64,000 nt of DNA from assembly GCA_026770025.1 (NCBI GenBank), contig JAMXDE010000013.1, positions 620,001-684,000 of the forward strand, read 5' to 3'. The position numbers were made by a program, and so were the translations under genes. This DNA comes from Craspedostauros australis (lineage: Eukaryota; Bacillariophyta; Bacillariophyceae; Mastogloiales; Achnanthaceae). The notes beneath the pieces were generated by a model. It ran no database searches and had not been told where the DNA came from. It saw only the letters and a list, made by a program, of their open reading frames with translations. Shown in pieces: positions 35,853 through 64,000 of this stretch; within the stretch, counting starts at the first letter, position 1; every line of letters starts with the position of its first letter.

Positions 35853-37601
35853 CTAGCACTGCTCTCCCCGCATCGTTTGCCGCGAACGGATCTGCTGCCC
35901 GACCCATCGTGCCAAAAAGTCCATCCCCTTCCAATGCAAGGCCTCGAGCTCCACCTTGGTCGTCATGGCGTCCAATTCTGCCTCGAAGGAGACGGGTCCA
36001 CATCTCAATACTTCGCTGTTGCCGCGTCGTTGCTGCCGGATGGTTTGCAGCCGCCGCTGATCCAGCTTCGTCATGGGCTGGTGCACATGGCGCGGCAGTT
36101 CCAACTGCGGTATGGACGAGGGCAGCAGCCCGATCCATTCCATCCGGAGATTGGCCGTCACAGCCGCGTGGTGCTTGGAATTGCGCGAGCCTTGACGCGC
36201 CGTCATGGACGACGACATGCCGGATGAGTACTGGTACGACTGCAACAACGACACGCCGAAGGGATTGCAATCACAGAGCCCGTAGACGGGCAGCTTGAGC
36301 TTGCAATGCAGGATCTGCACGAGTTGACGCGTCGCCAAATCCGGAAATCCTTTGCCCGTGATCAAGATGCAGGGCATGTCGCGGAAGAAACCGTCCTGGC
36401 ACAACCTCGTGTAGATGCCCTCCTTTTCCACCACCAAAAGGAATTGGGCGTCGCGCGACGTGAGGATCGACCGCGCGCTTGCATCGATGATGTCCGTCGT
36501 GATGGGCACGCCGTGCGCCGTGTGGAAGGAGCGTCCGTCAATGACGAGGCGGTGCGTCTCGGCGTCGTAGAGATCGAAGCAACCGCACATCCAGCCTTTG
36601 GGCGACGCGTGCAAACCCAGCGCGTATCGGGGGACCTGCAGGTGCGATGCCAATTCCCAAATGGCGGTGTCGCACTCCTGCTGATTGCGGAAGTGCGTGA
36701 TGTAGTGATAGTACAGCTCTCGTGTGGTGGTCGTCTTAGATCGTGCAGTTGGTTGTGACGTCAATGTTGTTGTTGTTGTTGCTGCTGTTGCTGCTGCTGT
36801 TGCCTGTGCATTGAGCGTGGTTGGACGATGAGAGTCGGCAATATCACGATTCTGTTGCAATAGCTCATGACAGTAGGTCGCCACGAGAAGAATGGAAGTG
36901 AGACTGCGGCATTGCGTGACATGCGCAAAGTGCCTGTTGGCGACGACGGGACAGCGGTCATGATCCAACCAATCCTGTAACACTGGCTGCAAGATCTGCT
37001 GCTCAATGCGACGGATCACTTCCTGCGGCGAAACTCGGAGAATGAGGTCGTCATGGTTGCAGTGCGTTGTAGAGCTTGCGCAGCATGAAGCCACCTGCGA
37101 CCGCGTCAACAATCCCGGCGTCGATGCATGATGGCTTCCATGCGGCATCGCGGAACTGCACTCGAAATCATCATCTTCGCGGTCTCCATGGTGCTGGCTG
37201 CGGTCTTGCGGCTGCTCAGGATGCCAGGTTTCGAAGCCAGCTGCCGTCGCCGACCGCTGTGGAACGACGAAGGAGGAGAAGCCTCGCGACTGCGGATGCA
37301 ACGCAGAGACTTGGAACGAACGCAGCCGTGCACCGCCAGAGTGTGCATACTCGTGTCCCTGGAGCCCGCCACCGTGCTCAGCCACGTCGGCAAGCGATTG
37401 CGACTGGCTGACCGCGTTGCAATGGGAGCGCACGCTCTCATCTTGCCAGGCATGCGACGCCATGGGGATGCTCGCACTTCTGCTCGTGCAATCAGGCAGT
37501 TGCTGTTTTGGCGCCAAAGATACACGCGATCGTGCGATAATGACACCATGATCGCCATCTCTCTCGTTGTGCGTACCTTCCCACCCATCGTGAGGGTCCA
37601 T
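35853..37601 (-). CDS. SPO11: SPO11, meiotic DNA double-strand-break transesterase (TopoVIA family)
   Basis: The single-exon ORF gives 582 residues from the ATG at 37601, which has A at -3 and G at +4; an in-frame ATG at 37712 (619 residues) has a weak context. SPO11 makes the breaks that start meiotic recombination, with a tyrosine that becomes linked to the 5' DNA end. The winged-helix motif T-T-T-R-E-L-Y-Y lies near 290-298, and the second Tyr aligns with the catalytic one. The Toprim part follows: V-E-K-E (391-394), C-I-L-I-T-G-K-G-F-P-D-L-A-T-R (near 411-425) and D-C-N-P-F-G-V (444-450), then W-I-G-L-L-P-S. The Toprim D-x-D position thus reads D-C-N. Residues 1-180 are a low-complexity extension, and an Ala/Thr run precedes the catalytic helix. 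The first part of the gene is duplicated inverted at the right edge. SPO11 supports a sexual life cycle. Confidence 0.88.
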   Translation of the reverse strand: MDPHDGWEGTHNERDGDHGVIIARSRVSLAPKQQLPDCTSRSASIPMASHAWQDESVRSHCNAVSQSQSLADVAEHGGGLQGHEYAHSGGARLRSFQVSALHPQSRGFSSFVVPQRSATAAGFETWHPEQPQDRSQHHGDREDDDFECSSAMPHGSHHASTPGLLTRSQVASCCASSTTHCNHDDLILRVSPQEVIRRIEQQILQPVLQDWLDHDRCPVVANRHFAHVTQCRSLTSILLVATYCHELLQQNRDIADSHRPTTLNAQATAAATAATTTTTLTSQPTARSKTTTTRELYYHYITHFRNQQECDTAIWELASHLQVPRYALGLHASPKGWMCGCFDLYDAETHRLVIDGRSFHTAHGVPITTDIIDASARSILTSRDAQFLLVVEKEGIYTRLCQDGFFRDMPCILITGKGFPDLATRQLVQILHCKLKLPVYGLCDCNPFGVSLLQSYQYSSGMSSSMTARQGSRNSKHHAAVTANLRMEWIGLLPSSIPQLELPRHVHQPMTKLDQRRLQTIRQQRRGNSEVLRCGPVSFEAELDAMTTKVELEALHWKGMDFLARWVGQQIRSRQTMRGEQC

Positions 37602-37762
37602 GATTGTCAGATGTGCAGTGGGGTTGGATCGAAGGATGGATCGGTCAATGGAATGATAGATCGATGCACTCTTGCGATGGTGGAGTGAAGTCAGTCGGTT
37701 GTGCTGGTGCATCTATTGTGGTCGCTGTGTGTGCAAACCACAACACATGCGTGCTTTCTTGG

Positions 37763-37912
37763 TTGCTCTCGTTTGTTGTGTTCGCTCTTTGTTTGGATTT
37801 GTGGATTCGTCGATTTCACGATCTTTTCGTTCTGTTTTGTTTGGCGCCATCTTCTTCAGTCGCGGCGGAATCAGGATTTTCGCCAAAAACATCATCGCTT
37901 GTCCAACACAAT
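37763..37912 (-). repeat. Dispersed repeat of about 150 bp, copy 2 (inverted)
   Basis: The reverse complement carries GTTTTTGGCGAAAATC and ACTGAAGAAGATGGCGCC, as at 11488-11640. It ends about 160 bp upstream of the SPO11 start and could belong to its promoter or leader. Confidence 0.7.
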
Positions 37913-38400
37913 ACAACGGCTTCGATGTGTGATGACGGGACCACGCATGTCAGGAATCAATGATGCAGATGTGTCATTATATCAAACTTTACCACACCTT
38001 TCAATGATATCATTCAGGCTCAACAAGTCAACTTGTGTAGATCACACTTGGGCTGCCTTGTAGCATGTCCCACTTTGCAAGACAACCAGTCATGTTGAGC
38101 AATGTGGCCTGTTCCAAATAGACATGAAAACACAAGTGTGAATCAGGAATCCCACCACTGGGGATGAACCTGAACACGATCAGGAGTATGGGTGCAACTG
38201 AACCCTCTCCAGGAGAACAGCATACACCACATTGGGCGTGCTCTGTGCGCTCTGATGGACAAGGACACTTGGGAGTCACCCAAAAGATAGAAACAATCAG
38301 AAAGAGCAACGGAATATGAATCAGAGCAACCAACCCAAGACCATCCAAGAACAGCAATGCGGACATGACAAACATGGTTGCAATTACCAGTGATGTGATG

Positions 38401-39203
38401 TGTTGGCAAGTTCCATGATTGGAAGCCTACAATCGTGGAAGACAGTGTTGTTCATAGTCGTTCTGCTTGCTATTTCATTACGTTGAGACTCCAATCCTCT
38501 CGGTGTCCATTCTCTTGCCCGATGCTCTTGGTGCTTCAATCTGTTTTGTAGATTTGGTCTCTGACTATGAGTCGGTACGCGAGATGCTCTCTTGCCACTC
38601 TTCGTATTCTCTCTCTCTCTCAACATCGTGTGCTCGCGCTACACGATACTCCGTGTTCGATGCGTACTCCGCATTCGACACTCCGTTCATTCAGTACTGG
38701 CTCCTACTCCATGAGTACTTACCATTTGAACTTCACCTCTCGTATCCATGATCTTGATGCCCTTCGGTCATCGGATCTTCACCTTCTGCTTCTGACTTGG
38801 AGACAGATGTCGACGTGGTGACACAATGACATCCTGTCGACGTCAGTAGGCGTCCTTCTGCTCTCCAGATGTCACGTTCCATTGGTGATGCAGTGGTCTG
38901 TCAGATGTTATCGTCATCTGAGGTTTAGTTGGGAAGTACCTCAAGATTCGCTTGGTACCATACGTCTCCATTGATGGATGAACGGACGATGTTTCTAATT
39001 CTCTCAGAAATCGTCAATTCCAAATTTCTTCCAGAAATCTTGCTCCTTTTCATGTGTTCCATTTCCCCTGTAATTCTGACGAATCACAGCATACTATCGA
39101 CATGAGTATAGTTATACCGTCCAAGTGCGTATGAGAGAATAACGGGTGAACGATGCACATATACACGTACATCTTGACATATACTCACATGTACATCTCG
39201 ACA
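38401..39203 (-). repeat. 3' LTR of the broken Copia element
   Basis: This 803-bp LTR shares its termini with the copies at 45490-46288 and 52465-53255. A near-identical inverted copy lies at 62145-62947, within the duplicated arm. Confidence 0.85.
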
Positions 39204-39223
39204 CCCTTCCTGTGTGCATTCAG

Positions 39224-42200
39224 TCATTCGAATGTTCTCGATGTGTCAAGGTATGACTTCTCATGTTCACGTTGTAAGTCGGCCTTGATGTTCTTGGTGA
39301 ATCCGTCGCTTGTGTTCTGCTCGGATTTGACGAAAATGATTTCGATGGTTTTGTTGATTACCATGTTCCTCACGTAGTGATGGCGCACGTCGATGTGCCG
39401 CGATCGTTGGGATGTTGATGGGTTCTTGGCGATGAAGATTGCTCCGATGTTGTCCACACGGACCTTGATCGGTGTCTTCACTGGGACGCCCACACTTTCG
39501 AGTAGCTGCATCACGAAGAAGATTTCCTTTGCCGCTTCGGAAAGGGCAACGTATTCTGCTTCGGATGAGCTGAGTGTGACGGCCTTCTGTGCCTTGGATC
39601 GCCAAAGGATTGGTACCTTGCACAGGTATAGGATGAATCCCCCTACGCTAATTCTTGTGTTCTTGTCTCCTGCATATTCGCTATCGCAGAAGAGCTCCAT
39701 GTCCCAGCCGTCGTCGTCTGGACGCGCTGGATGGATCTTCAATCCATAATCCTTTGTATCGATCACATACTTGATGATCCGATACATCTCCTTCATTGCG
39801 GCCTTGGTGGGCCCGATCAATACCTTGGAGAGTTCCCTCACAGGGTTCGCGATATCCGGTCGCGAGTGCTTGATGAGGAAGAGTAGCATACCGACGCCTC
39901 GGCGATATTCGGCATGTTCTTCCGGTCCGACCTTCTGCAGTCCGTTATCTTCGGATGGTCGTACGATGATTTGACCCGGGGTTCCCGGTGTCCCATAGCG
40001 TTGCATCTTCTCAACCTTGGTTCCGAATTCTTCAATGAGGTGTCGGATGAGATGTGGTTGACGCAATGTCGCTCTAGTCTTGTCATGGTTCAGTTCGATG
40101 TTGCAGCTGAGGTAGTCTCCGAGTCCATGCTCGATTGTCACCTTGAACTTGCTGCCTTGGATGTCCTTCAGGAATGTCTCCAGTGCCTTGGAGTCTCTGC
40201 AGCAGAAGCAGCCGTCTACGTAGATGGCCACAATCATGCTTCCTTCGTTCGTCTTCCTGTAGAACAGGCACGGGTCTGCTGCGCTCTGTTCGAAGTTGAT
40301 ATTCTTGAGGGTCGATACTAACATCTTGAACCATTGCCTGGCGCTCTGCACAAGTCCGTAGATTGGCTTGTGTAGGGTCAGGGCTTCGTCTGGTTGATGA
40401 TCCATCCCGTTGGGACAGTTCATGTAGATCTCCTCGTCGAGGTCTCCATGTAGGAATGCCGTTACAACATCGACGAGTGCGCAGTTCATCTTCTTGATCA
40501 GCATGATCACCATCATGACCCAATAGGTCACGTCATGGATGACGGGTGAGTAATGCTCTTGGAAGTCTACTCCTGCGACTTGTGAATAGCCACATGCAAC
40601 GAGCCGTGCTCGATGTGTGCCGTCACGCTTCAGCTTGAAGACCCATTTGCACTTGCAGCATCTGCGGCCGCGTGGGATGGCGTCTCGTTTGATCTTGCTG
40701 TACACCTTGCGTGTATCCATGGAGTCGAACTCCTTCTTGATGGCTGCTCGATATCCCTTCCGATGGATGGGATCTGGGTGATTGAAGGCTCCGTCGAACG
40801 TTGTAGGTTCGATGTGCTTCTCTGGTTCTTTGTTCTCGTCCTGCATCGATAATCCGATGTCGATCGCTGGTCTCTCGGTGATGATTGCATTCATCCCGTA
40901 TAATCCAGTTGTGCTATGGTGAGTGATCTCAATCTCTTCTTCTTCGTCTACGATTTCTTCGTCATCTGTAGTTTCGTTGTTAGACTCGTCGGTTATCTCA
41001 TCGCTCAGTTCGTCACTGTCTTCACTGGAGGATGACTTGCTCTCATAACCTTCCTCCTTTCGACCTCGTTCATTGAAGTCTGCGAGCTCACGCAGAGCTC
41101 TGGGAATACTCTTCCCTGCAGTTGACTTGGGATTAGCTTCTCCCTTCCTGCCTCGTGCTTTGTGGCGTCGGATTCTCTCCTTTCTAGCCACGTCACACTT
41201 GCTTGGTTTGCTTGGTGGAGGTCTGGATGGTGTGTCATGTGTAGATCTCGCTGGTGTGTTCGGAGGGGTAACACCTGCATCATCGTCGGCTTCGTTGCCG
41301 GATGGTTGGATCTCGTTATCCTCCTGATTAGATTCACTTCCATCTTCCTCGTCATTGTGGACTAGTTGAGTCACTACTCCATCGTCCTCATCATCCTCAT
41401 CGTCACTGTCCGATAGGATGTAGTACCTGTTACTGTCAGTGAAAGATACTCTCTTCGCTTCTGATGTTCGACGCGTTGCCGTCCTTGGCATTGCTCCCTT
41501 CCGTCCGATGGTTGTGAAGCCGTCTGCGTTCGTTGTTCCTGCTTCGTTGGATATGTTCGGTGCTGGTGCCCAGCCACGGAACTGTCCGTATGATTGGTTG
41601 AGCTACTTGATATCGCGTGAGCAGATCAGTGACCTGGTTGATGGTCTGTACATGTTGTAGACCCCTGATGCATGTTGGTGTGCATATCCAATGAACACCA
41701 TCTCTTCTCCTCTATTCTTGAGTTTCGCGGTAATCCCGCCGTAGGTAGTCTTCACAACACCCACCTCTCCAAACGTGCGGAGTGCATCCGCATATGGTGG
41801 ATTGCTGCCGAAGAATTGGCGATATGGTGACTCCTTCTGATTCTTCGCTACGGTGATGTTGGCGATGGCAGTGGCAGTGCTCGCAGCTGCTGCCCACAGG
41901 CCATGCCTATACTCTTCGTCGAGTTGTGCTCCGTTGAGCATGGAACGGATCTTGGTGTAGAGGTACGCGAACTTGCGTTCTACTCTACCGTTCTGTTGCG
42001 GCGTATTCGATGCCGTGAATTCGAATTTCACGTTCAGTCCTGCATCGATGAGAATATCCTGCGTGGATTTGTTCTCTCCGCTGTTGTCACCTCGGAAGAT
42101 GATTTGTTGATCACCAGTCGGTGACTTGATCGTCTGGACGAATTGTTTGATGTACCCTGGTTGGTCACTTTTGTTCTTGAGAAAGAAACTCCAGCAGTGA

Positions 42201-44146
42201 TCCGTGCAGTCGTCCACGATCAGGGTCCAGTAGCGTTATCTCCGAAGCTTATGTGTTTAGTGTAACTAATGTCAATGAAGAGCCGTTCGCCGCGGCGAGT
42301 GGCTCTTGGAATGGTTGCCTTCGGGATATTCTTCACTCTTGCGTTCGCGACCGCGCAGTCGCGACATACCGGCATCTCGCCGATAATCTTCCATCCATAT
42401 TGAGCGACCGTCCGCTTCATGGTCTCGAGTGGCGCGTGGCCGAGCATTCGGTGCAGGTTCACCGCGCTGATCTCCTTGGATGGATTCTTGACGATAGCTG
42501 TGCAAGCCTTGTTGTCGTCTGTTGGCATGATGGGATGCATCTGCACTCCCGTGATGAATCCGTTGGATGTGGGGAAGACTCGATCGAACACGATCTTCGT
42601 TCCGGATCCGTTGATGATGTCCATCAGAATGCCATTGTTACCAAGCTGGTAACCGTTGTACAGAGCCTTGTTCGTGGAGAAAAGGTTCACCGCCATTTTC
42701 GGTGTGTACTTCACATCATCGAGCCGGATGGTGTGGCCAGTGTTGTCTCGCTGCTTGACCTTCAAGCGAATGGATCCCATCTTGGGAGAGTCCAGCTTCG
42801 TGCTGTCTCCCACTTGGACGAAGGACTTGATATGCCGCACGTTGAAGAGAGCGGCGTCCGAGTTGACGATGTGACACGAAGCTCCGCTATCGGCGAGCCA
42901 GGTGTCCTTGTTGACCTTGTCCTTGTACTTGGTGCTCAGCTCGTGGAGTTGCTCCACAGCTGCCGCAGCTATCTCGTCGTCGAAGCTGCCATCATCATCG
43001 TCTTCGTGAACTTCATCTTCGTTGTATGGAGGATGATGATCTCTGTCATCCATGTCGTCGGGTAATTGCGCATAGTCCGATGGAATCGTACTGTTCCGAT
43101 GAGATCCTGTGGCTGGATCATATGGGTGGACGCGTGATCGCTCGCGTAAGAGCACGCGCATGCATCCTCCAAGGATGTAATGAAGATCTGTCTCTGGGAT
43201 CGTCTCTGTCTCGGCTGCTTCCAGTATGCGATTGATCACAACCGAATTGGCGAGAATCTCTTCGATTGATCTGAAGTTCTCGGATAGGATCGATCCCATC
43301 ATGTTCACCCATATTGGTCTGAGCACTCTTCGTTCGACTCCTGGGTACAGTTTCACTCCTGCTTCCATTACGGCATCAAAGATGAGTTGCTTCTGGATTA
43401 TCAATGCTGTTGCTGTTCCGTATGGAATGGTGTCATGACGATGGAGGTAGTTGGAGTTGTTGAGATTCCCAATCGGTGGGAACTCAATGTTCCGTGGGTA
43501 GATGACACGCTCGTTTGGATTGAAGCTGTCGTCTGGATGGTCTTCGGTTTCGTCACTGTCGTCTTCGTCGAAGATGCCCGATCTGTTGTTCCCCGCCGCT
43601 GGAGGAGGCGGCACCGCGCCGCCGTTCGTTTCGTCTTGGCCTCTATCAATCTCGTTGGTCTCATCGTCGGCCTCTTCGCTCATGGCCTCTTCGATGTCAC
43701 TATCGATGGCCTCGTTGCCCATCTCGGCTCCGTCGCTGTATGGACCGATCAGGTCGTGCGCGTTGAAGCAGCATTCGTAGCTCACTTCGCGTCTTGGATC
43801 CACCTCGTGGATGATGGGCTCCTCGTTGAGCCACTCCGGGACGATCTCATCGTCCTGTACTTCGTCGTCACTCCCGACGCACTCGAAGTTATCGAAGAAG
43901 GAGTCTTCGATGTAGTCATTGGACACCAACATGCAGAGCAGCATGTCCTTTGCCGAGAGTACCATCTCGTGCCCGCTCTTGTCGTGTCCTTCCGTTGCTG
44001 CGTTGACCTGTTCGTCGGCCTTCTTCTTCTCGTTGAACTTCTTCTTTCGGCACTCCGCCTCGCGATGTCCGAAGATACCACAGTAGTTGCACTTGCCGTT
44101 GAAGCCGCTTCCCTTGTTGCGGTTGTTGTTGCGCTTTCCATTCATC

Positions 44147-44179
<33 letters not shown>

Positions 44180-45408
44180 TTCTTGTTGTTTGATTTCTTG
44201 CGTTCTGGGCAATCGACGGATCTGTGACCATACACACCACAGTTGTGGCAGGTCCCCTTGAAATTACCGGTGCTCGTGAAGCCGGTGTCGTTGCTCTTCG
44301 TGTTGCTATCTTGGAAATCGTCGATGTACGCCTTGCCTCCTTGATGAGTGGCGTATGCTGTGTGGAGTACTCCTCTGATCGCGTTGATGGTAACCAGTTC
44401 CGGATTAAACGTGAGTTGATGTTGGAAGTTCACGATGTGAGTTCTATATTCGCTGCTCACCGTGCTGAGGATTTGCATGATCATCTCTTCGTCAGTGATC
44501 TCGTACTTGACGTCGTGGAGATGCGATCGTAGACCCTCGAGTCGCATGATGTAGATGTCGGGGTCCGAGTCTTTCTTCATTTTTTCGTTGTTAAACTGAC
44601 GCTTGAGTTTGATTTTCGTTGCTGCATCGGATGGACGGAACTTCTCCGCGAGAACGTTCCACGCTGCGTGTGGATCTCCTTCGGGGTAATCGTCGGAGAC
44701 GCATTGGTTGATGTATTGGATGGCTTGCTTGCCTTTTCCTTTCTCTGCATCCATCATGAGGATCAGATCGCTGAAGCAGTCGCATTCCAGTTCGTAGATT
44801 TCCTCCATCGCTTCCTTGACATCGTCGGCAGCTGCCGCGATCTCACTCACTGTTGGGACCTTGGTCTTGCCCAACATCACGTCTCTCGTCTTCTGTGCAC
44901 GAGCGTATGCCTTCGCTTGGGACTCCCATGCGCTGTAGTCTTCCTGTTCACCGCTGAACATCAGCGCCTTGATGCGTCGCTTATTCATGTTGGCTGATGT
45001 CGCCATGTTGATTCGTTGTTTCATTGTTGGTGCGCTCGTGCCCTTGATTTCCGTTGGTTTCTGTGTTGCCGATTCTTCGATTTTCGCTTGTTTCGCAAGG
45101 ATTGATTTGCTCACAAATTCTCCTCCTGGTGGTGTCTCACTTTTCCCACTCTGTTTGGCTGTGCGAATGCTCTCCGTCACACCAGTCTCCTCTTGCTTGA
45201 CCGTCTTGAAAATCCTCTTCTCCTCGCGGTGTAGTCTTGCAGACCGTTCTTCTTCGGTCTCGTTGATTGCGCTTGCCTCTGCGCTTGATAGGACAGTAGC
45301 CGTGGCTGCTTCCTTCTCTTCTCGTGGTGGAGTCTCACTCACACCTTCTTCTCTCTTGATAGTCGAATTGGACAGAGGGATGTCTCTCAATTCCTCTTCC
45401 TCGCTCAT
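39224..45408 (-). pseudogene. gag-pol coding region of the broken Copia element
   Basis: The order along the minus strand is as follows. The gag part has two CCHC zinc knuckles around 44.27-44.04 kb (C-H-N-C-G-V-Y-G-H and C-N-Y-C-G-I-F-G-H). The protease site D-S-G-A lies near 42.89 kb. Integrase spans roughly 42.45-41.95 kb. Reverse transcriptase and then RNase H cover about 40.7-39.3 kb, with an A-E-Y-V-A-L-S-E-A-A-K-E motif in RNase H that is typical of Copia elements. A poly-Asn run from a GTT repeat lies near 44.15 kb in gag. It is a fossil with about two breaks. Confidence 0.85.
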
Positions 45409-45489
45409 TCAGTCTGCTGCTCTTGAATGATGTCGTCTTCCTCGCACAATCCAATCCGCGGGCTCGCCCTGATCTATCGTTTATAAATG

Positions 45490-46288
45490 TGTTGGCAAGT
45501 TCCGCTCACGGTAACCTACAATCGTGGAAGGTGGTGTTGGTTGATAGTTGTTCATTTGCTATTTCATTAGTTGGCTACTCCGATCCTCTCGGTGTACGCC
45601 CATTCTCTTGCCTGATGATCTCGGTGCTTCAATCTGTTTCATAGATTCAGTCTCCGACTATGAGTCGGTACGCGAGATGCTCTCTCGCTCCTCTCTGTAT
45701 TCTCTCTCTCTCTGTCTCAACATTGTGTACTTGCGCTACACAATACTCCGTGTTCAATGCGTACTCCGCATTTGACACTCTGTTCATTCAGTACTGGCTC
45801 CTACTCCATGAGTACTTACCCTTTGAACTTCACCTCTTGTATCCATTATGCTGATGCCCTTCAGTCATCGGATCTTTGCCTCCTGCTCTGACTTGGAGAC
45901 AGATGTTGACGTGGTGACATGATGACATCCTGTCAACATCAGTAGGTATCCTTCTGCTCTCCAGATGTCATGTTCCATTGGTGATGCAGCAGTCTGTCAG
46001 ATGATATTGTCATCTGAGGTTTAGTTGGGAAGTACCTCGAGATTCTCTTGGTACCATTGATGGATGGACGGACGATATTCCAATTCTCTCAGAAATCGTC
46101 GATTGCAAATTTCCTCCAGAAATTCTGCTCATTTTCGTGTGTTCCATTTCCACTGTAATTCTGACGAATCACAGCATACTATTGACACGAGTGTAGTTAT
46201 ACCGTCCAAGTGCGTATGAGAGAATAGCGGGTGAACGATGCACATATACACGTACATCTTGACATATACTCACATGTACATCTTGACA
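45490..46288 (-). repeat. 5' LTR of the broken Copia element
   Basis: This 799-bp LTR starts TGTTGGCAAGTTCC and ends ATCTTGACA on the plus strand. It is clearly diverged from the 3' partner at 38401-39203. Confidence 0.85.
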
Positions 46289-53880: not shown

Positions 53881-53954
53881 CCCTTCCATTGTCGCATCGA
53901 CAACATAACATCCATCATCACCGTCCTTCTTTCTCACCTTTCGCCTTACTCCCT

Positions 53955-56900
53955 TTAATCCATTGCAGACCGCAGTTGGATGAAGTGATTCTTGTGGTTG
54001 TCGTAGATCTCCTTTTTGGTGTTCTTCGTAAAGCCGTCTGCGATGTTGTCTTCCGATCGCACGAATTTGGTTATGGCTTCTCCATTTTTGACGAGTTCAC
54101 GTATGAAGTGATGTCGGATGTCGATGTGCCTTGTTCTTGCGGATGTCGATGGGTTTGAGGCGATGAAGATCGCTCCGACGTTGTCGACCATAACGTCCGC
54201 GGGTTTGTGCATCTTTAATCCGATGTCTCTCATCAGTTGCGTCACGAAGCGGATTTCTTTCCCTGCTTCTGACAGTGCGACGTATTCTGCTTCTGTCGAG
54301 CTGAGTGTTACGCTGCGTTGTGCCTTTGATCTCCATATGATTGGCACTCCTTGTAGTAGGACGATGTGCCCTCCTACACTGATGCGATTGTCCTTATCAC
54401 CCGCGAATTCGCTGTCGGTGAATATTGCAATCTTCCATGCATCGTTAGTCAGTGGACTTGGTTTCATCTTCAGTCCATACTCTCTTGTGTCCCATACGAA
54501 CTTCATGACTTGTAGCATCTCCTTGTATGCTGAGGCTGTTGGTCCGTCCAATACTTTGGTCAGCTCTCGCACTGCATTGGCGATGTCGGGTCGAGAGTGT
54601 TTCACCAGGTATAGCAGCATGCCTACTCCGCTTCGGTATCGGCTGTGTCGCTGTTTGTCCACCTTGGGTGCATCGCTGTTCCTTTGGATGCCCTGCCCTG
54701 GTGTTCCTGGTGTTCCGTATCGTTGTAGTTTCAGCACATCGCTCCCGAACGTATCGATGATGTTCTTGAGGATGTGTGGTTGGTTCACCCAACAGTTCGT
54801 CTTGTCATGGTTGAATATGATCTTGCAGCTTAGGTAGTCTTCAAGATCTTCCTCCACTTTGACCCCGAACCGTTCCGCTCGGATATCCTTCACGAGCTTC
54901 TCCAGTTCCTGCTTTTCTCCGATGCAGAGACAATCGTCCACATAGGTGCCGATTAAAAGCAGTTGCCCTTCCTGATTCCGAATCAGTAGGCATGGGTCTA
55001 CCTCACTCTGCCTGAACCCCAGTTTGAATAGGATGTCGACGAGCTTCTTATTCCATTGTCTGGCACTCTGCACGAGTCCGTAGATGGTTTTCTTGAGCAG
55101 CAGACATTCGTCGGTTTCGTGCTTCATGCCTTTCGGGCATTGCATGTAGATCTCCTCGTCGAGGTCACCGTGCAGGAATGCTGTCTCGAAGTCGATGATG
55201 ATGCTATCTAGCTTCAATATCATCTTCATGGTGAGCATGATGCGGTAGGTTGCGTCATGTATCACTGGTGCGTGGTGCGCTGAGAAGTCGACTCCTGCGA
55301 TTTGCGAGTATCCGCATGCCACGAGTCTGGCGCGGAATACCCCGTTTCTCTTTTCCTTGAAGACCCATTTGGTCTTCACGCACCGCCGATCTCTCGGCAT
55401 TTGGTCCTTCTTGATCTTTTCCCATACTTTCCTTCTGGCCATATCGTAGAATTCCTTGTTGATGGCTTCTCGCCATTTCTTTCTCTTACTGGGGTCCGCG
55501 TGGTCCCAGCAGTCTTCGAATGTGGTTGGGTCCAATAGCATAGCGATACTCGCTAGCTCCATCCCATCCTCATTTCGTTCGTTGTTCAATGCTTGGTCCG
55601 CAGTGATGATATCGTCGAGTCTCATCATTCCGTGAGGTGTATCTATCATCATACCTGCGATATCTCTGTTGAATGTTGACCCGTCCGCGTGGAAGTCGGG
55701 TCCTCCTGTGTCCGATGGGGATGCGATAGTCTCTTGGGGTGTCTTGTACCCTTCGTCTGTATTTGGTTCTGACTCATCGCTCGATTCGAGGTCTCGCTCC
55801 TCCTCTGGAATGGGTTCTTTGTTATACCCTGCGAGAGCACTCACCATCCTTGGTACGCGTTGCACAGGTTCTGCGATAGGGGTCTGCTCCGGCTCATATT
55901 TGGCCTCTTCATTTGCTCTCCCCTCATCGTCCCTTCCGAATTCGTCGCCGTCATTATCGTTCGACTCATTTTCCCCTTGGGTGGGGAGCAAGTCATCTTG
56001 CCCTCGCGCAGCGTCTTCTGTATCTTCTTTCTCTCCGGCTCTGCTGCTGCGATCTGCGTCGTCGGTCTCCATACCTTTGATGGTCTCCGATCGTCGCTCC
56101 CAAGCTGCTCTCGTGTGTCGAGTCTTCATACCCGATGTAGAGTCGTCATCTTCCAGATCTATCAATATTGATCTGTTGGCATTCTCGATACCTCTGAATT
56201 GCCCATATGACTGATTCATCCATGTCACGTCTCTCGTGATTAGGATCTTAGTTGTTGCGAGGTTCAGCATTCGATACACTCCCTTCGCGTGTGACTGGCC
56301 GTATCCAACGAACATAGCTGGTCTGGATCTGTCATCCAGCTTCGCCTTTATCGTGCGGCCTCCGATGTACACCATGCCTATTTCCCCGAAAACGCGCAAC
56401 CCATCCACGTAAGTTGGGATCCGGTTATTGAACAGCACGCATGCTGGTTCTCTCGTTTTCGTCCCGATGATATTCTCCAATTGGGTAGCGGTTCTGGCCG
56501 CTTCGGCCCATAATTTTCCTCGGACATTTTTCGGTAGGTGCGTGTGATTGAGCATGGCTCGAACTTTCCCGTACAACGTGGCGAATTTTCTTTCCACGCG
56601 ACCGTTCTGCTGCGGCGTAGATGCCGCAGTGTACTCGAACGTTGGGGCGAACCCTGCGACGAGTAGTTGCTTCTCCGCAGAATAATTTTCTCCTGCGTTG
56701 TCACATCTGATAATTTTCACTCGTGTTTGCTGATTGGCGTGGAGCCATTTAAGCAACAGAACCATTATTGTTCCAACCTCACTCTTCTCCTTCAGAAAAT
56801 AGCTCCAGCAGTAGTCACTGTAATCATCGAGGACTAGGAGCCAATACTTCCCTTGTCCGTAGCTGTGCGTCTGGACACTTGATGTGTCAATGAACAGTCG

Positions 56901-59900
56901 ATCACCAACCCCCTTCGCTCGTGATTGGAGTTTCTTTGTCATGGCCTTCTGCCTTTGTTTGCCAATGGCACAGTCCACACATGCATGCAATTTGCCTGTG
57001 ACATTCCAACCGTATCGTCCTGCTGTGCGAGAGATCGTGTAAGTGTCAACATGGCCTAACATTTTATGGATTTGGTTGACGTCCACCGCGGTCTGGGTGG
57101 ACACGCCAACATTGGCTTGATCGTGAGGGTGAGGGGCGGTGATCATGTTGACGCCGCTCACGAACCCGCTATGGGTTGCCATGAGTCTGTCGAACGTGAT
57201 GCGTTGCCTGCGCTTCTCCAAGCTCATCACGACACCTTGGTTGCTGATGTCGAAGCCGTGCTCGAGAGCTTTGTTGATGCTCAAGAGGTTCACCCACAGG
57301 TTGGGCACGAACTTCACTTGCTTGAGCACGATGGTAGCTTGGTTCCCGTTCTTCTGCATCACAACCATGCGTTTATCGCCAACCTTTGTTGCCTTGAGGT
57401 ATCGGCCGCTGCCGATCTTGATGGAGTGGTTGGCCACTCGCACGTTAATCATTCCCTCTTCGCTATTGGTGAGGTGGCATGAGGCACCGGAATCACCCAG
57501 CCACGTGTTTGCTTCGTGGTGGTCGGGGGCGATGGTGTGGCGGAGTGCGCTTGCATCGTCGAGGTCACCGATCACCATGGCCATGTCTGGTTGAGCGTCT
57601 TGGTGGTCACCGATCACCATGGCCATGTCTGGTTGAGCTTCGGCGGCTCGGTAGATGGGGAGCTGGTTGAACTCCTCTGGGTCTCGGACTCCTTGGTCAC
57701 CTGGATGATGCATCCACATCAGCATCTCTGCGGCATGCTGAACCAGGCTGTCGATGAGCCCTCTGTGGATGGGAGGCAGGTTGAGTTCTTCAAGCCTTGC
57801 GTTAATGTGTTGCACGGCTTGCACCAGTTGCATTGGCGTGTACACGTCGATGCGGTGCATCATGTAGTAGAGCGTGCGAGGGTTCAGGCTTTCTCCTCCT
57901 CCTTCGATGTACGCGTGCGCCGCGTTGCAGCACAGTAGGGCAAGCTCAGAGCGCACTTCATCAGCAACCATCATGTTGCTGAGAGAGTATCTCATTGCGA
58001 CATGCAGAGGTCCTGCAGTCCAGAGCTTCTGGCGGCGCGTCATGATGTCTTGGATCGTTGTTGGCGCCGCCCTTGCAGGGGGGTTTGCCAGTTGGATGAG
58101 GAACGGCGAGTTACGGCAGGTCTTGCACATGGCGTAGAGTGGGCCGCGCTGAAAGCACAGCGGGCACCATCCTGCGGTGCTCCCTCCGTTGCGGGACGAC
58201 TCTTCGATCATTCGATCAACCAGAGTCCTTGGTTCGGTTCGAGAGTAGATGGTGGAGGTGACGCGATGGTCGACTCCAGGCATCGCTACTTCGTTCTCCA
58301 TGATGTCTCCGACGTTGAGGGGTTCATCCTCGTAGACGATCCCGTCGAAGAGATTGTCTTCGTCGGTGTAATCGTCTTCATCGCTTGATGGGAAGTGCTC
58401 GCGGTTGATGGTCTCAACTGCAGCAACTGGGGGTCCGTAGTATCCGTACACACTTGGGGTGTGGGCCTCTCGTTCCTCTTCAGAGTACTCGTCCTCTTCT
58501 TTGAGGTCGAGTCCATTCATGTCCTCGTCGGTGGTTGCGAGGGCCATGTCGTTGATGAACGACTCGTAGTGCGCCATGTCGGTGGTGTTGATTGTTTGGT
58601 TTTTCTTGATGTTCGTGATTTCGTCGATTGTCACGATTCTTGGGTTGGTCACATTTTTTACCTCAACGGGGTCGATTTCGAGCTCGTCGGTGGGGAAACA
58701 CACCAATTCTTCGTTGTTGACCGACTTGTCTTCGTCAGGTAACCACATTGATTCATCGGTCATCACGAGATCAATTTCGTCTTCTTCGTCGTTAGCGGGC
58801 ATCCACATGGATTCATCTACCACGACGAACGCAGCGTTGTCTGCCGCAGTGTCTTCGGGTAGCCACATCGGTTCCTCGACCATCACGAGGGCGACGTCAT
58901 CTGTTCCTTCCATACCGTTGGTGGCCACGTTGGCGGCATCGGCTGCTCTCATCGCTGCCTTCAACTTGAAGCACTCGAGGATCTTGTGTCCCTTCTTACC
59001 GCAGTACTTGCAGTTTCTGTTGAACTTAGTCTTGTCCTCAGTATCACTTCTCTTGTTCTTCTTCGGGGGCTTGCCACCTTTGTTCTTAGGCGCAGACCGG
59101 CAGTCTGCCTTCTTGTGCCCGTAGGCTCCACAGTTGCGGCAGTGGCCCTTGAAGCCACCAGTGGTGGCGAGTGCCATTTCTTCCTTGCTATTGTTCTCGC
59201 GCTTACTACCTCCTTGCTTGATGTGACGTGCGTCGTAGGTTGCACTCACTGCTTCGCGGATGTCTTCGATAGTCATCTGCTTTTCGACGTTCTCGAACTT
59301 GAGCTCGATGAGCTTCACATCCATTTCATAGTCCCTCCCGAGAGCGTTGAGCACGAGCATGTGGTATTGCTCCATGTCCATGTTAACTCCCGCGTGCTTG
59401 AGGCGGTTACGGATCACCTCCATTTCGGTGAGGAAGGTATCCGGAGGTTCGCCTTTCTTCATTCGCATCCCGTTGAGTTGAGCCAACAACTTTGCCTTCA
59501 TTGGCGCAGTGCGTTGCTCGTAGATGCGCTCGAGAGCCTTCCATGCCTTACGAGGGTCTCCTCCCTCGTAGATGTTGCTCTCGCATCCCAACACAGCCAT
59601 GAAGGCGACATCGCCTTCGGTAGTTTCATGGTTGATTGCCATGGTCAGTTCTTCAAACGCGTACTTGGCCAGAGCCATCTTGTACTCCGCCTTCTCCTTG
59701 AGAGACATGGCAGATAACTTCGAGGCCTTAAGCTTCTTCTCTTCGCTTCCCGCGATGGAGGCGAGAGGAGAGGGGTCAAAAGCCTCGGTCTTCACAATCA
59801 CTTCACCCAAGTCCTTGAGATACAAGTCTCCGTAACCCTTGCGGTTGGCACGGGCGAGGAACTTCGCACTCCAAGCTTTCCAGGAGGATCGCTTGCCGTC

Positions 59901-59945
59901 GAACATGATCATGTAACGATCGGTCTTACCGAGGAAGGACGTCAT
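53955..59945 (-). CDS. Copia gag-pol polyprotein, 1996 aa, appears whole
   Basis: One open frame encodes all Copia parts in order. The gag part has two CCHC knuckles (C-R-N-C-G-A-Y-G-H near 59.13 kb and C-K-Y-C-G-K-K-G-H near 59.00 kb). A long acidic linker follows. The protease site W-L-G-D-S-G-A-S lies near 57.49 kb. Integrase has its H-H-C-C part near 57.05-56.97 kb and its catalytic core between 56.9 and 56.6 kb. Reverse transcriptase includes Y-V-D-D near 54.94 kb, and RNase H covers about 54.4-54.1 kb. A 42-bp in-frame tandem duplication lies just before the protease at about 57.57-57.65 kb. The integrase-before-RT order defines Copia (Ty1), and gag and pol share one frame as in many Copia elements. 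Confidence 0.9.
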   Translation of the reverse strand: MTSFLGKTDRYMIMFDGKRSSWKAWSAKFLARANRKGYGDLYLKDLGEVIVKTEAFDPSPLASIAGSEEKKLKASKLSAMSLKEKAEYKMALAKYAFEELTMAINHETTEGDVAFMAVLGCESNIYEGGDPRKAWKALERIYEQRTAPMKAKLLAQLNGMRMKKGEPPDTFLTEMEVIRNRLKHAGVNMDMEQYHMLVLNALGRDYEMDVKLIELKFENVEKQMTIEDIREAVSATYDARHIKQGGSKRENNSKEEMALATTGGFKGHCRNCGAYGHKKADCRSAPKNKGGKPPKKNKRSDTEDKTKFNRNCKYCGKKGHKILECFKLKAAMRAADAANVATNGMEGTDDVALVMVEEPMWLPEDTAADNAAFVVVDESMWMPANDEEDEIDLVMTDESMWLPDEDKSVNNEELVCFPTDELEIDPVEVKNVTNPRIVTIDEITNIKKNQTINTTDMAHYESFINDMALATTDEDMNGLDLKEEDEYSEEEREAHTPSVYGYYGPPVAAVETINREHFPSSDEDDYTDEDNLFDGIVYEDEPLNVGDIMENEVAMPGVDHRVTSTIYSRTEPRTLVDRMIEESSRNGGSTAGWCPLCFQRGPLYAMCKTCRNSPFLIQLANPPARAAPTTIQDIMTRRQKLWTAGPLHVAMRYSLSNMMVADEVRSELALLCCNAAHAYIEGGGESLNPRTLYYMMHRIDVYTPMQLVQAVQHINARLEELNLPPIHRGLIDSLVQHAAEMLMWMHHPGDQGVRDPEEFNQLPIYRAAEAQPDMAMVIGDHQDAQPDMAMVIGDLDDASALRHTIAPDHHEANTWLGDSGASCHLTNSEEGMINVRVANHSIKIGSGRYLKATKVGDKRMVVMQKNGNQATIVLKQVKFVPNLWVNLLSINKALEHGFDISNQGVVMSLEKRRQRITFDRLMATHSGFVSGVNMITAPHPHDQANVGVSTQTAVDVNQIHKMLGHVDTYTISRTAGRYGWNVTGKLHACVDCAIGKQRQKAMTKKLQSRAKGVGDRLFIDTSSVQTHSYGQGKYWLLVLDDYSDYCWSYFLKEKSEVGTIMVLLLKWLHANQQTRVKIIRCDNAGENYSAEKQLLVAGFAPTFEYTAASTPQQNGRVERKFATLYGKVRAMLNHTHLPKNVRGKLWAEAARTATQLENIIGTKTREPACVLFNNRIPTYVDGLRVFGEIGMVYIGGRTIKAKLDDRSRPAMFVGYGQSHAKGVYRMLNLATTKILITRDVTWMNQSYGQFRGIENANRSILIDLEDDDSTSGMKTRHTRAAWERRSETIKGMETDDADRSSRAGEKEDTEDAARGQDDLLPTQGENESNDNDGDEFGRDDEGRANEEAKYEPEQTPIAEPVQRVPRMVSALAGYNKEPIPEEERDLESSDESEPNTDEGYKTPQETIASPSDTGGPDFHADGSTFNRDIAGMMIDTPHGMMRLDDIITADQALNNERNEDGMELASIAMLLDPTTFEDCWDHADPSKRKKWREAINKEFYDMARRKVWEKIKKDQMPRDRRCVKTKWVFKEKRNGVFRARLVACGYSQIAGVDFSAHHAPVIHDATYRIMLTMKMILKLDSIIIDFETAFLHGDLDEEIYMQCPKGMKHETDECLLLKKTIYGLVQSARQWNKKLVDILFKLGFRQSEVDPCLLIRNQEGQLLLIGTYVDDCLCIGEKQELEKLVKDIRAERFGVKVEEDLEDYLSCKIIFNHDKTNCWVNQPHILKNIIDTFGSDVLKLQRYGTPGTPGQGIQRNSDAPKVDKQRHSRYRSGVGMLLYLVKHSRPDIANAVRELTKVLDGPTASAYKEMLQVMKFVWDTREYGLKMKPSPLTNDAWKIAIFTDSEFAGDKDNRISVGGHIVLLQGVPIIWRSKAQRSVTLSSTEAEYVALSEAGKEIRFVTQLMRDIGLKMHKPADVMVDNVGAIFIASNPSTSARTRHIDIRHHFIRELVKNGEAITKFVRSEDNIADGFTKNTKKEIYDNHKNHFIQLRSAMD

Positions 59946-60024
59946 GGTGATGATGGTGAGAGTCGTTTGTTGCTGTGTTGGTGATGATGGAAACGTAGGA
60001 TTTCAATCGTAACGTTTCGAAACG

Positions 60025-60706
60025 TGTTGGAAATCCGGGGTTAGTGTTAGTAAGACCTAATGCGTTGTTAGACCGTACTATTCAGAACTGTGAGCTCATT
60101 CTCTTCAGCTCCTTTGCCTTTCGTTTCTCACATAGCATCTCCTGCAGCAGCATCGTGTTATACTGTTGCATTCATGCATCTCATCATCATGAATCATCGC
60201 TTGCATACATGAGATCGCATCCGCAGGCATCCTTTGTCATGCACATCGTCGTGCATATCCGTAGGCATTCTTTCCATGCACCTTGTCGTGCATATCCTTA
60301 TTCTACATTCCCTGCGGTACGATTCCACAGTCTTGCGTTTCGCTCTTGATCTCTTGACACCGAACTTTACGATTGGTGTCATGATTGGTGTCATGGATGA
60401 TGCCCTTTCTGAGTTGTTCTAGTCCGTGGGTGACACGTGCCATGATCTCCAGATGGGGTGATCATCAATGTGTCGATCATCATCTTCCTTCACATGATTT
60501 AGATATCGTGGCCTTTTCTTGATTCATAGAGGACAGGCTTGTTTGCTTGGTAAGACTGAGGTCATTCCCGTGTGATTCGTGTCGTGGGTGGAATGGATAA
60601 TATTCAATGGTGTGACGAATAATATCCAAAGGTGTGACAAATAATGTTGGGAGTTGCGGCAATCATGGGTATCTTTCCGACAGAGTCGTACCCTCGATTC
60701 CTGACA
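60025..60706 (-). repeat. 5' LTR of the second Copia element
   Basis: This 682-bp LTR starts TGTTGGAAATCCGGGG and ends GATTCCTGACA on the plus strand. Its inner end lies 79 bp from the polyprotein start. Its outer end interrupts the ORF at 60707-61492. Confidence 0.85.
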
Positions 60707-61492
60707 GTTGGATTCCCTCGCCATTGGCAGGCGGATGTCGAAAAAGGTCTTGTGGAATTCGCTTAGGACGTCATTCACACTGAGGAGCTGTGCTGGCTTA
60801 GGCGCTTTCCTTGGAAATGCCACGACCTTGCGTCTTGGTTTGCGTTGCTTCTTCTTTTTCTTCGGGTTAGGGGATGTTGTCGTCTCTTCCTCTCCGTCGA
60901 ACTCGATGCCCTTGGAACGCATGAACACAATCCGAGCCGCCACCCATGCTGCCGTCTCGTGCGTAGACTTGATGCTACCGGCTTCCCACAGTCTGGGGAA
61001 GATGTTGGGGGTTGCCACCAGTCGCACCATGAGTTCCACGATGTTGATGTTGTTATCTGGGTGAAGCTTATTGTCGTAAGCGTCTTGGAATGCGTCGATC
61101 CACTCTTCGAGAGTCACGCCTCGGTTGATGTCTTGTGCTCCTTCCTTGAGGTGGGCAATGGTTTCATCGAGTGCCCCGTCTTCGCCGGTGGCCGCAGTGA
61201 AGGGTTCGGCGTCGCGCGTCAAAAGATTTCTTTCGAGGAGAATGTCTCCCCACGATTTCTCATGGTCATGGCTCCAAATCCAACGGATGTCACACGACCT
61301 GGTGTTGTTTTTTGCTCCCTTTTTTCCGCTCACTTCTCTGGCCTGTTTCCGGCCTCCTCCTCCATGCCCCGCTGCGGCCTTGGTACCATTGTGACGGCCT
61401 CCTCGTCCTGATCGTCCCTGTGCCCTCTGCTGACCTCGGGGGTGCTTGGGGCTGGCTCCGCTGGAGCTGTTTGTTGCGTCGGTGCGCACCAT
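60707..61492 (-). CDS. Basic protein of unknown function, C-terminus cut by the LTR
   Basis: This minus-strand frame starts at an ATG at 61492 and runs 262 codons to the LTR edge at 60706, where the reading frame passes into LTR sequence. Residues 1-60 are Gly/Arg/Ser/Lys-rich and suggest nucleic-acid binding. The middle (about 80-190) is acidic and helical, with G-V-T-L-E-E-W-I-D-A-F-Q and W-E-A-G-S-I-K-S. A Lys/Arg run follows near 205-225 (K-K-K-K-K-Q-R-K-P-R-R-K). I do not recognise the family. The remaining C-terminus was not found on the other side of the Copia element. Its 5' end lies about 100 bp from the inverted-duplication breakpoint at 61594, so the promoter may also be displaced. 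It may be a gene fragment. Confidence 0.45.
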
Positions 61493-61593
61493 GGTCGATG
61501 TTTTGTCTGCGGTAGTAATTGTACACGTTCTACGTAAATTTTTTAGTACCGGTCCTACGTACGTCTTCTCGGTGGAAGGGTCACACGGACTAT

Positions 61594-62124
61594 AAGGACT
61601 ATGGATTGAAGATCCATCCAGCACGTCCAGACGACGACGGCTGGGACATGGAGCTCTTCTGCGATAGCGAATATGCAGGAGACAAGAACACGAGAATCAG
61701 TGTAGGAGGGTTCATCCTATACCTGTGCAAGGTACCAATCCTTTGGCGATCCAAAGCACAGAAGGCTGTCACACTCAGCTCATCCGAAGCAGAATACGTT
61801 GCCCTTTCCGAAGCGGCAAAGGAAATCTTCTTCGTCGTGCAGCTACTCGAAAGTGTGGGCGTCCCAGTGAAGACACCGATCAAGGTCTGTGTGGACAACA
61901 TCGGAGCAATCTTCATCGCCAAGAACCCATCAACATCCCAACGATCGCGGCACATCGACGTGCGCCATCACTACGTGAGGAACATGGTAATCAACAAAAC
62001 CATCGAAATCATTTTCGTCAAATCCGAGCAGAACACAAGCGACGGATTCACCACGAACATCAAGGCCGACTTACAACGTGAACATGAGAAGTCGTACCTT
62101 GACACATCGAGAACATTCGAATGA
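61594..62124 (+). pseudogene. RNase H end of the broken Copia family, 5'-truncated copy
   Basis: The fragment encodes the last 175 or so residues of the Copia polyprotein, including D-S-E-Y-A-G-D and S-S-E-A-E-Y-V-A-L-S-E. It is followed by a purine tract and an LTR. It is a by-product of the inverted duplication and not an independent insertion, because the host flank came with it. Confidence 0.9.
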
Positions 62125-62144
62125 CTGAATGCACACAGGAAGGG

Positions 62145-62947
62145 TGTCGAGATGTATATGTGAGTATATGTCGAGATGTACGTGTATATGTGCATCGTTC
62201 ACCCGTTATTCTCTCATACGTACTTGGACGGTATAACTATACTCGTGTCGATAGTATGCTGTGATTCGTCAGAATTACAGCGGAAATGGAACACACGAAA
62301 AGGAGCAAGATTTCTGGAAGAAATTTGGAATTGACGATTTCTGAGAGAATTAGAAACATCGTCCGTTCATCCATCAATGGAGACGTATGGTACCAAGCGA
62401 ATCTTGAGGTACTTCCCAACTAAACCTCAGATGACGATAACATCTGACAGACCACTGCATCACCAATGGAACGTGACATCTGGAGAGCAGAAGGACGCCT
62501 ACTGACGTCGACAGGATGTCATTGTGTCACCACGTCGACATCTGTCTCCAAGTCAGAAGCAGAAGGTGAAGATCCGATGACCGAAGGGCATCAAGATCAT
62601 GGATACGAGAGGTGAAGTTCAAATGGTAAGTACTCATGGAGTAGGAGCCAGTACTGAATGAACGGAGTGTCGAATGCGGAGTACGCATCGAACACGGAGT
62701 ATCGTGTAGCGCGAGCACACGATGTTGAGAGAGAGAGAGAATACGAAGAGTGGCAAGAGAGCATCTCGCGTACGGACTCATAGTCGGAGACCAAATCTAC
62801 AAAACAGATTGAAGCACCAAGAGCATCGGGCAAGAGAATGGACACCGAGAGGATTGGAGTCTCAACGTAATGAAATAGCAAGCAGAACGACTATGAACAA
62901 CACTGTCTTCCACGATTGTAGGCTTCCAATCATGGAACTTGCCAACA
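62145..62947 (+). repeat. Copia LTR within the right inverted arm
   Basis: This is the inverted, roughly 99% identical copy of the LTR at 38401-39203. Some of its variants match the LTR at 45490-46288 instead. Confidence 0.9.
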
Positions 62948-63435
62948 CATCACATCACTGGTAATTGCAACCATGTTTGTCATGTCCGCATTGCTGTTCT
63001 TGGATGGTCTTGGGTTGGTTGCTCTGATTCATATTCCGTTGCTCTTTCTGATTGTTTCTATCTTTTGGGTGACTCCCAAGTGTCCTTGTCCATCAGAGCG
63101 CACAGAGCACGCCCAATGTGGTGTATGCTGTTCTCCTGGAGAGGGTTCAGTTGCACCCATACTCCTGATCGTGTTCAGGTTCATCCCCAGTGGTGGGATT
63201 CCTGATTCACACTTGTGTTTTCATGTCTATTTGGAACAGGCCACATTGCTCAACATGACTGGTTGTCTTGCAAAGTGGGACATGCTACAAGGCAGCCCAA
63301 GTGTGATCTACACAAGTTGACTTGTTGAGCCTGAATGATATCATTGAAAGGTGTGGTAAAGTTTGATATAATGACACATCTGCATCATTGATTCCTGACA
63401 TGCGTGGTCCCGTCATCACACATCGAAGCCGTTGT

Positions 63436-63585
63436 ATTGTGTTGGACAAGCGATGATGTTTTTGGCGAAAATCCTGATTCCGCCGCGACTGAAGAAGATG
63501 GCGCCAAACAAAACAGAACGAAAAGATCGTGAAATCGACGAATCCACAAATCCAAACAAAGAGCGAACACAACAAACGAGAGCAA
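63436..63585 (+). repeat. Dispersed repeat of about 150 bp, copy 3
   Basis: It is the mirror of copy 2 within the inverted duplication and a diverged relative of copy 1 at 11488-11640. It lies about 160 bp upstream of the second SPO11 start. Confidence 0.7.
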
Positions 63586-63746
63586 CCAAGAAAGCACGCA
63601 TGTGTTGTGGTTTGCACACACAGCGACCACAATAGATGCACCAGCACAACCGACTGACTTCACTCCACCATCGCAAGAGTGCATCGATCTATCATTCCAT
63701 TGACCGATCCATCCTTCGATCCAACCCCACTGCACATCTGACAATC

Positions 63747-64000
63747 ATGGACCCTCACGATGGGTGGGAAGGTACGCACAACGAGAGAGATGGCGATCAT
63801 GGTGTCATTATCGCACGATCGCGTGTATCTTTGGCGCCAAAACAGCAACTGCCTGATTGCACGAGCAGAAGTGCGAGCATCCCCATGGCGTCGCATGCCT
63901 GGCAAGATGAGAGCGTGCGCTCCCATTGCAACGCGGTCAGCCAGTCGCAATCGCTTGCCGACGTGGCTGAGCACGGTGGCGGGCTCCAGGGACACGAGTA
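63747..64000 (+). CDS. SPO11: Second copy of SPO11, N-terminal part only (3' partial at the window edge)
   Basis: The ATG at 63747 mirrors the SPO11 start at 37601 and is followed by the same reading frame to the edge, with no difference noticed. Only about 84 codons of the low-complexity N-terminal extension are inside the window; none of the catalytic parts can be seen. An earlier in-frame ATG lies at 63636. Whether the copy is full length, truncated or expressed depends on sequence to the right. Confidence 0.8.
   Translation, partial: MDPHDGWEGTHNERDGDHGVIIARSRVSLAPKQQLPDCTSRSASIPMASHAWQDESVRSHCNAVSQSQSLADVAEHGGGLQGHE

Follow-up and report, generated by a model that had tools for sequence, protein, structure and literature searches.

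Opposed Copia elements probably joined through a shared LTR in composite inverted arms beside a SPO11-family gene of a diatom

Introduction

Inverted duplications described in human chromosomes retain a disomic spacer of 766-70,466 bp between the two copies, and among the cases presented in that report hybrid LINE or SINE repeats were found at 3 of 21 sequenced junctions (PMC3907307). Among the Atlantic cod inversions attributed to ectopic recombination, the account given in PMC12368964 places related elements in opposed orientation at the segment ends and a chimeric element at the breakpoint. A hybrid repeat at the edge of the spacer is a recognized sign that opposed repeats have exchanged by homology. 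For diatoms, Ty1/copia-like LTR retrotransposons of CoDi groups are described in PMC8147415, and two members of the SPO11 family, SPO11-2 and SPO11-3/TOP VIA, are listed in PMC4647503.

Here we describe a locus of Craspedostauros australis, contained in a window of 64,000 nucleotides, in which a SPO11-family gene adjoins a long inverted repeat. The locus shares with the human cases of PMC3907307 a spacer between the copies and, where this spacer meets the inverted copy, a hybrid repeat of two opposed elements, although copy number was measured in those cases and the repeats were LINEs or SINEs, whereas here a Copia LTR is involved. Related, opposed elements at the segment ends and a chimeric element at the breakpoint likewise connect it to the cod inversions of PMC12368964; unlike these, it is seen in a single contig, and that contig lacks the other flank that an inversion should produce. 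Finally, one of its elements, designated Copia A below, has Gag, a zinc knuckle, Pol_BBD, RVT_2 and LTRs in common with the CoDi groups of PMC8147415.

Results

Positions 37348-39754 pair with 61594-64000 read on the opposite strand in an alignment that covers 2407 bases and contains 22 mismatches and no gap (99.09% identity, BLAST E 0.0), and the coordinates of paired positions sum to 101348 throughout, in full agreement with the preliminary description of inverted arms without net indel. The arms are at least 2407 bases long, their outer limit being set by the window edge at 64000, while on the inner side the similarity ends abruptly at 39754/61594, leaving a spacer of 21,839 bases (39755-61593). 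The seven bases GGACTAT are present twice at the 61594 edge and could be end-joining filler. Scans of the 64-kb window for tRNAs and Rfam families found none.

The gene beside arm 1 is a complete 619-aa SPO11/TopoVIA-family ORF on the minus strand (35853-37712). Both domains of the family were identified above Pfam gathering scores (TOP6A-Spo11_Toprim, 1.6e-35; TP6A_N, 5.4e-11), and PDB matches included topoisomerase VI subunit A (4.4e-16) and the meiosis-specific SPO11 chain 8urq (1.7e-8); six topoisomerase matches in NCBIfam were all under the curated cut-offs. The ORF carries RELYYHY, which aligns with REAYY of 1d3y, along with VVEKEG at residue 427 and CDCNPFG at residue 480. Codons 1-121 and 688 bases upstream constitute the SPO11-side flank of arm 1 (37348-38400), which is identical to its counterpart in arm 2 (62948-64000), where the flank ends at the window end. 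The second SPO11 start put forward in the preliminary description is thus present as codons 1-121 only (63636-64000, plus strand), identical to those of arm 1, and it holds as a second start only if the contig is correct. By mirror symmetry, the motif aligned with the active-site tyrosine would be expected near 64626, beyond the window, so that the arm 2 portion is without the active site. In IMG/VR, no stretch matched SPO11, and no outside outgroup was obtained from there.

Inward of the flank, arm 1 enters a Copia element on the minus strand, Copia A, which comprises a 3' LTR (38401-39203, with TG...CA ends and 87.5% identity to 45487-46288), an internal region with three broken ORFs (39224-45408) and the paired 5' LTR (45490-46288). 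Of the two outer ORFs, which were scanned against Pfam, one contains gag, zinc knuckle and Pol_BBD domains and the other RVT_2 followed by a putative RNase H; Gag, Pol_BBD and RVT_2 together with the paired LTRs are those of a Ty1/copia element. The outer flanks of the LTR pair display no common target-site duplication (left ATGTGATG, right AACAAAGC), whereas a solo LTR of the same family within the spacer (52465-53255, minus strand) has the six-base duplication AGCATC on either side. The mismatched flanks suggest an exchange of flanks at the element rather than a sign against its Copia identity. Because its own two LTRs differ throughout (83/639 in the outer part, 7/152 in the inner part), Copia A may already have been recombinant before the present event. 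The solo LTR served as an outgroup for the comparisons below; a search of IMG/VR for relatives of the Copia A RT ORF returned 600 pattern-matching stretches, of which 0 were confirmed, and hence provided no outgroup.

At the other end of the spacer, arm 2 begins with the truncated end of a Copia in the opposite orientation (61594-62144, plus strand), which has 14 differences from Copia A in 531 coding bases. It continues into an LTR at 62145-62947 (plus strand), so that homologous repeats stand opposed at both spacer ends, on the minus and plus strands respectively.

The arms are composite in their mismatch profile. All 22 mismatches fall in the Copia half and none in the 1053 bases of unique flank (Fisher 3.3e-6); by part, there are 0/1053 in the SPO11-side flank, 2/651 in the outer LTR part and 20/703 in the inner part. 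The best change-point was placed at 39052, with 2/1704 mismatches outside and 20/703 inside, and its likelihood gain was reached by 0 of 20000 permutations. The two outer mismatches (38562 and 38574) are 12 bases apart and without explanation. CpG-transition-like changes make up 10/22 by reading of contexts, and 6/14 by reading or 7/14 by a wider rule in the coding part. A faster decay of methylated or silenced Copia DNA was considered as the cause of the mismatches and fails to explain the profile, since CpG density is alike in the flank (52/1053), outer LTR (34/651) and inner part (45/703), and the outer LTR, which is also Copia, has just 2/651. Within the inner coding part, 11 of the 14 differences between the two Copias are silent (chance 2.8e-4; 7.7e-4 allowing for CpG), as would be expected of copies that had separated as working elements and not of a dead local copy.

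The two parts of the LTR also display conflicting affinities. In the outer part, arm 1 differs from arm 2 at 2/651 positions and from the solo LTR at 74/633, while in the 152 bases of the inner part 2 positions separate arm 1 from the solo LTR and 6 positions, 3 of them CpG-type sites (39052, 39103 and 39175) that mutate repeatedly, separate it from arm 2 (Fisher on the four inner and outer counts, 1.8e-6). All inner pairs except arm 1 and the solo LTR differ at 6 to 8/152, arm 2 being no closer to any other LTR, in a comparison with small inner counts and two other LTRs as outgroups.

Discussion

Because the inner differences are mainly silent and the inner and outer LTR parts group differently, arm 2 most likely owes its inner half to another Copia insertion, separate and truncated (Copia B), to which the SPO11 flank would have been joined inside the LTR, between 62297 and 62773. 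The arms do hold the SPO11 5' end, its upstream region and part of a Copia, as first described; the Copia part, however, is unlike a piece of one duplicated block, as mismatch density, silent-site bias and LTR affinities all point to a second, independent insertion. On this reading, 39754/61594 would be the truncation point of the second Copia instead of the end of a duplication.

Taken together, these results suggest that two opposed Copias were probably joined through their shared LTR, by recent rearrangement or by assembly. Two members of one family would have stood 21.8 kb apart in opposed orientation, a full-length but broken Copia A beside SPO11 and a truncated Copia B from 61594, and the SPO11 flank would have become attached to Copia B via LTR homology. 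This would leave a hybrid LTR at 62145-62947 whose inner part (62145-62296) belongs to Copia B and whose outer part resembles the arm 1 LTR, the switch lying in a run of 477 bases that is identical in both arms and divides the low-mismatch from the high-mismatch part (38575-39051 in arm 1, mirrored by 62297-62773 in arm 2). Homology between the opposed Copias would be the cause of the join, and the contrast in target-site duplications between Copia A and the solo LTR is a further point in favor. Change-point and conflicting affinities are those of a hybrid repeat at the junction, but gene conversion could give the same picture: conversion over an older inverted duplication also yields identical outer arms, and a tract stopping within the LTR mimics a crossover.

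Joining through the LTR could have come about in three ways, which share its likelihood in decreasing order: inversion in one haplotype, true inverted duplication, and misjoin. Exchange between inverted repeats produces inversions without loss. We tentatively place first, at somewhat less than an even chance, a conservative inversion of the spacer in one haplotype of a diploid, through exchange between the opposed Copias, with both arrangements merged by the assembler. The contig would then read SPO11 (haplotype 1), Copia A, spacer, Copia B, SPO11 (haplotype 2), with SPO11 twice in the contig and once per chromosome, and both the hybrid LTR and the identical flank would follow. A flip of the spacer by recombination between the arms, as initially proposed, is plausible, and in one haplotype it could by itself produce the present contig; a join of haplotypes in assembly had rightly been named as the main alternative. 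Chimeric elements from ectopic recombination are described at inversion breakpoints (PMC12368964), a mosaic of haplotypes makes up the P. tricornutum reference according to PMC8147415, and two distinct molecules, not a repeated use of one, are suggested by the 2 outer mismatches. However, an outbred diploid would be expected to show more than 0/1053 allelic differences, unless heterozygosity was lost in the region; one P. tricornutum chromosome is reported with little haplotype variation (PMC9266582).

It is rather unlikely that the region was truly and recently duplicated in inverted form around a single-copy spacer, even though the identical flank suits a very recent copy and the anatomy resembles that of human inverted duplications with disomic spacers (PMC3907307). 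A broken end in Copia B would have folded back on, or invaded, Copia A, with copying outward through SPO11. Against this, the human spacers in PMC3907307 are <15 kb in 20/21 cases, compared with 21.8 kb here, and those cases arise via unstable dicentrics that lead to terminal deletions, translocations or rings; in addition, the arm end lies beyond the window.

An ordinary inverted duplication of SPO11 flank and Copia ending at 39754/61594, with its outer part later converted, or else an inversion by end joining of staggered breaks, is unlikely. The continuous, gap-free match of 2407 bases fits either, and staggered breaks followed by end joining would generate inverted duplications of non-repetitive DNA at the inversion ends, which PMC12368964 gives as the mark of such inversions; the SPO11 flank is such DNA, duplicated and inverted, and the seven-base repeat could be the filler. 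End joining would be expected to duplicate DNA of one age, whereas the past of the Copia half appears to differ from that of the flank. Against both routes stand the inner silent-site bias and the conflict of LTR affinities, while a duplication without conversion would be expected to spread its mismatches evenly, contrary to the change-point. Least probable is that the assembler made a false join within the 1.35 kb of Copia similarity, with other sequence as the true outer flank of Copia B: the join does fall in 477 bases identical between the repeats, and no difference is seen in the unique flank, but 2 mismatches lie outside the switch interval and long reads, if used in the assembly, would span a 1.35-kb repeat.

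We lean towards one of two readings: exchange between opposed Copia LTRs has left the strain with the 21.8-kb segment next to SPO11 in both orientations, or the SPO11 region has truly been copied in inverted form, and very recently. Were the arrangement an assembly product rather than a recent chromosome rearrangement, neither a second SPO11 start nor gene-dosage claims derived from it should enter the annotation. The mismatch profile also illustrates how sequence by itself can distinguish a duplicated block from two homology-joined repeats. If the inversion or the recent copy is true, an almost unmutated LTR-driven rearrangement would adjoin a gene of the meiotic double-strand-break family. 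Should the arrangement exist in cells, it would represent an LTR-mediated rearrangement of very recent formation beside a SPO11-family gene, its switch interval already mapped, and would offer a useful view of how Copia elements reshape such genomes.

Composition of the inverted arms

The interval 37348-39754 (arm 1) is repeated in inverted orientation at 61594-64000 (arm 2); the 2407-base alignment contains 22 mismatches and 0 indels, which confirms the reverse-complement arms without net indel of the preliminary description. This length is a lower bound, as the right end of arm 2 coincides with the window edge (64000); the inner limit of similarity is sharp, at 39754/61594, and the spacer measures 21,839 bases. 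The arms had been read as one duplicated block, which would suit the SPO11-side flank (0/1053 mismatches) but apparently not the Copia part, where all 22 mismatches lie within 1354 bases (Fisher 3.3e-6), unevenly divided between the outer LTR (2/651) and the sequence inward of 39052 (20/703). A single change-point at 39052 gave a log-likelihood gain of 18.8, equalled in 0 of 20000 random placements of the 22 mismatches; this permutation is the fair test, the Fisher value for the same split (2e-9) being inflated because the point was picked from the same data. The arms are composite, not uniform. A higher mutation rate in silenced repeats was rejected as the source of the mismatch bias.

Arm 2 includes only codons 1-121 of SPO11, identical to arm 1 throughout. 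The proposed second SPO11 start is present to this extent, provided that the contig is correct; the tyrosine motif, mirrored into arm 2, would fall at ~64626, past the window end. The ORF itself (35853-37712, - strand, 619 aa) belongs to the SPO11/topoisomerase VI A family (Pfam TOP6A-Spo11_Toprim 1.6e-35, TP6A_N 5.4e-11). At E up to 0.01 it matches five distinct PDB sequences, of which one is a meiosis-specific SPO11 (8urq, 1.7e-8) and the other four are topoisomerase VI A subunits, the best at 4.4e-16; PMC4647503 reports SPO11-2 and SPO11-3/TOP VIA from diatoms. Just upstream of the SPO11 start, outside the Copia LTRs, 37763-37911 (mirrored at 63437-63585) is one copy of a ~150-base dispersed repeat, the other lying inverted 26 kb away at 11488-11639 (86% identity).

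Copia elements and the origin of the inner halves

Copia A, upstream of SPO11 on the - strand, has LTRs at 38401-39203 and 45490-46288, with Gag, zinc knuckle, Pol_BBD and RVT_2 domains spread over broken ORFs; in its pol, an in-frame stop separates the ORFs that meet at 41602/41603, and the frame changes near 42220-42235. The two LTRs differ throughout (83/639 and 7/152), and Copia A may already have been recombinant before the SPO11 flank was joined. Comparison of both outer flanks revealed no target-site duplication around Copia A, whereas the solo LTR at 52465-53255, from the same family, carries a perfect six-base one (AGCATC) on both sides, which agrees with flank exchange at Copia A. 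Another Copia (53955-60002), 65% identical to Copia A over the best DNA stretch, retains a single unbroken frame of 2015 residues (Gag, Pol_BBD, SH3, RVT_2); a direct repeat around it (53788-53880 and 60611-60706, 93-96 bases, 85%) may be part of its LTRs. Elsewhere in the spacer, a tandem array at 50112-50308 matches itself at 12-base offsets and multiples.

The inner arms share 531 coding bases and differ at 14 of them, silently in 11 cases. A silent count this high or higher has a probability of 2.8e-4 in a transition/transversion model, or 7.7e-4 when CpG transitions are handled separately, an excess expected of copies from working elements, not of a dead element copied in place. Within the inner LTR part (152 bases), arm 1 shows 2 differences to the solo LTR and 6 to arm 2, the remaining pairs showing 7 or 8 and arm 2 being near no other LTR; the outer LTR of arm 1 shows 2/651 differences to arm 2 and 74/633 to the solo LTR, columns with gaps being left out. 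Fisher on these four counts gives 1.8e-6, with small inner counts and two LTRs as the only outgroups; IMG/VR scans with the Copia A RT ORF and SPO11 found no outside relatives to serve as such. At the eight LTR differences between arms, the solo LTR sides with arm 1 at 7 and with arm 2 at 1 (38562). Judged from sequence, the inner halves look like different Copia insertions.

A proposed joining within the LTR

A second element, Copia B, opposed to Copia A and truncated at 61594, probably sits at the far spacer end. Its truncated edge contains GGACTAT twice (61587-61602), ~100 bases before the ATG of ORF 60524-61492 (- strand), a frame for which Pfam and NCBIfam gave no match at E 0.001. The SPO11 flank was probably joined onto Copia B; the simplest place for this is the LTR stretch 62297-62773, 477 identical bases that mirror 38575-39051 in arm 1. 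Exchange between opposed repeats leaves a hybrid repeat bordering the spacer, as in 3 of 21 sequenced junctions of human inverted duplications, whose single-copy spacers span 766-70,466 bp, 20 of the 21 being shorter than 15 kb (PMC3907307). According to PMC12368964, inversions by TE-TE ectopic recombination yield chimeric elements at breakpoints, and those made by end joining are marked by non-repetitive DNA duplicated in inverted orientation; taken alone, the SPO11 flank would suit end joining, but the Copia half would not. Alternatively, a gene conversion tract may have ended inside the LTR.

Chromosome-level readings

Three readings share this anatomy. Possibly, though short of an even chance, the spacer inversion is heterozygous in a diploid and the assembler walked between haplotypes, one SPO11-A-spacer and the other SPO11-B-spacer (reversed), producing a contig in which SPO11 appears two times. 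For P. tricornutum, the reference genome has been characterised as a mosaic of haplotypes (PMC8147415). An identical sequence would result from a true inverted duplication in which a broken end was copied outward, a reading that is a little less likely. An assembler misjoin at the repeat, yielding the same contig, is improbable; the mismatches at 38562 and 38574, outside the switch interval, suggest two molecules. Exchange between inverted repeats produces inversions without loss, and for this reason we place the haplotype inversion ahead, though by a small margin, as 0/1053 is low for allelic differences.
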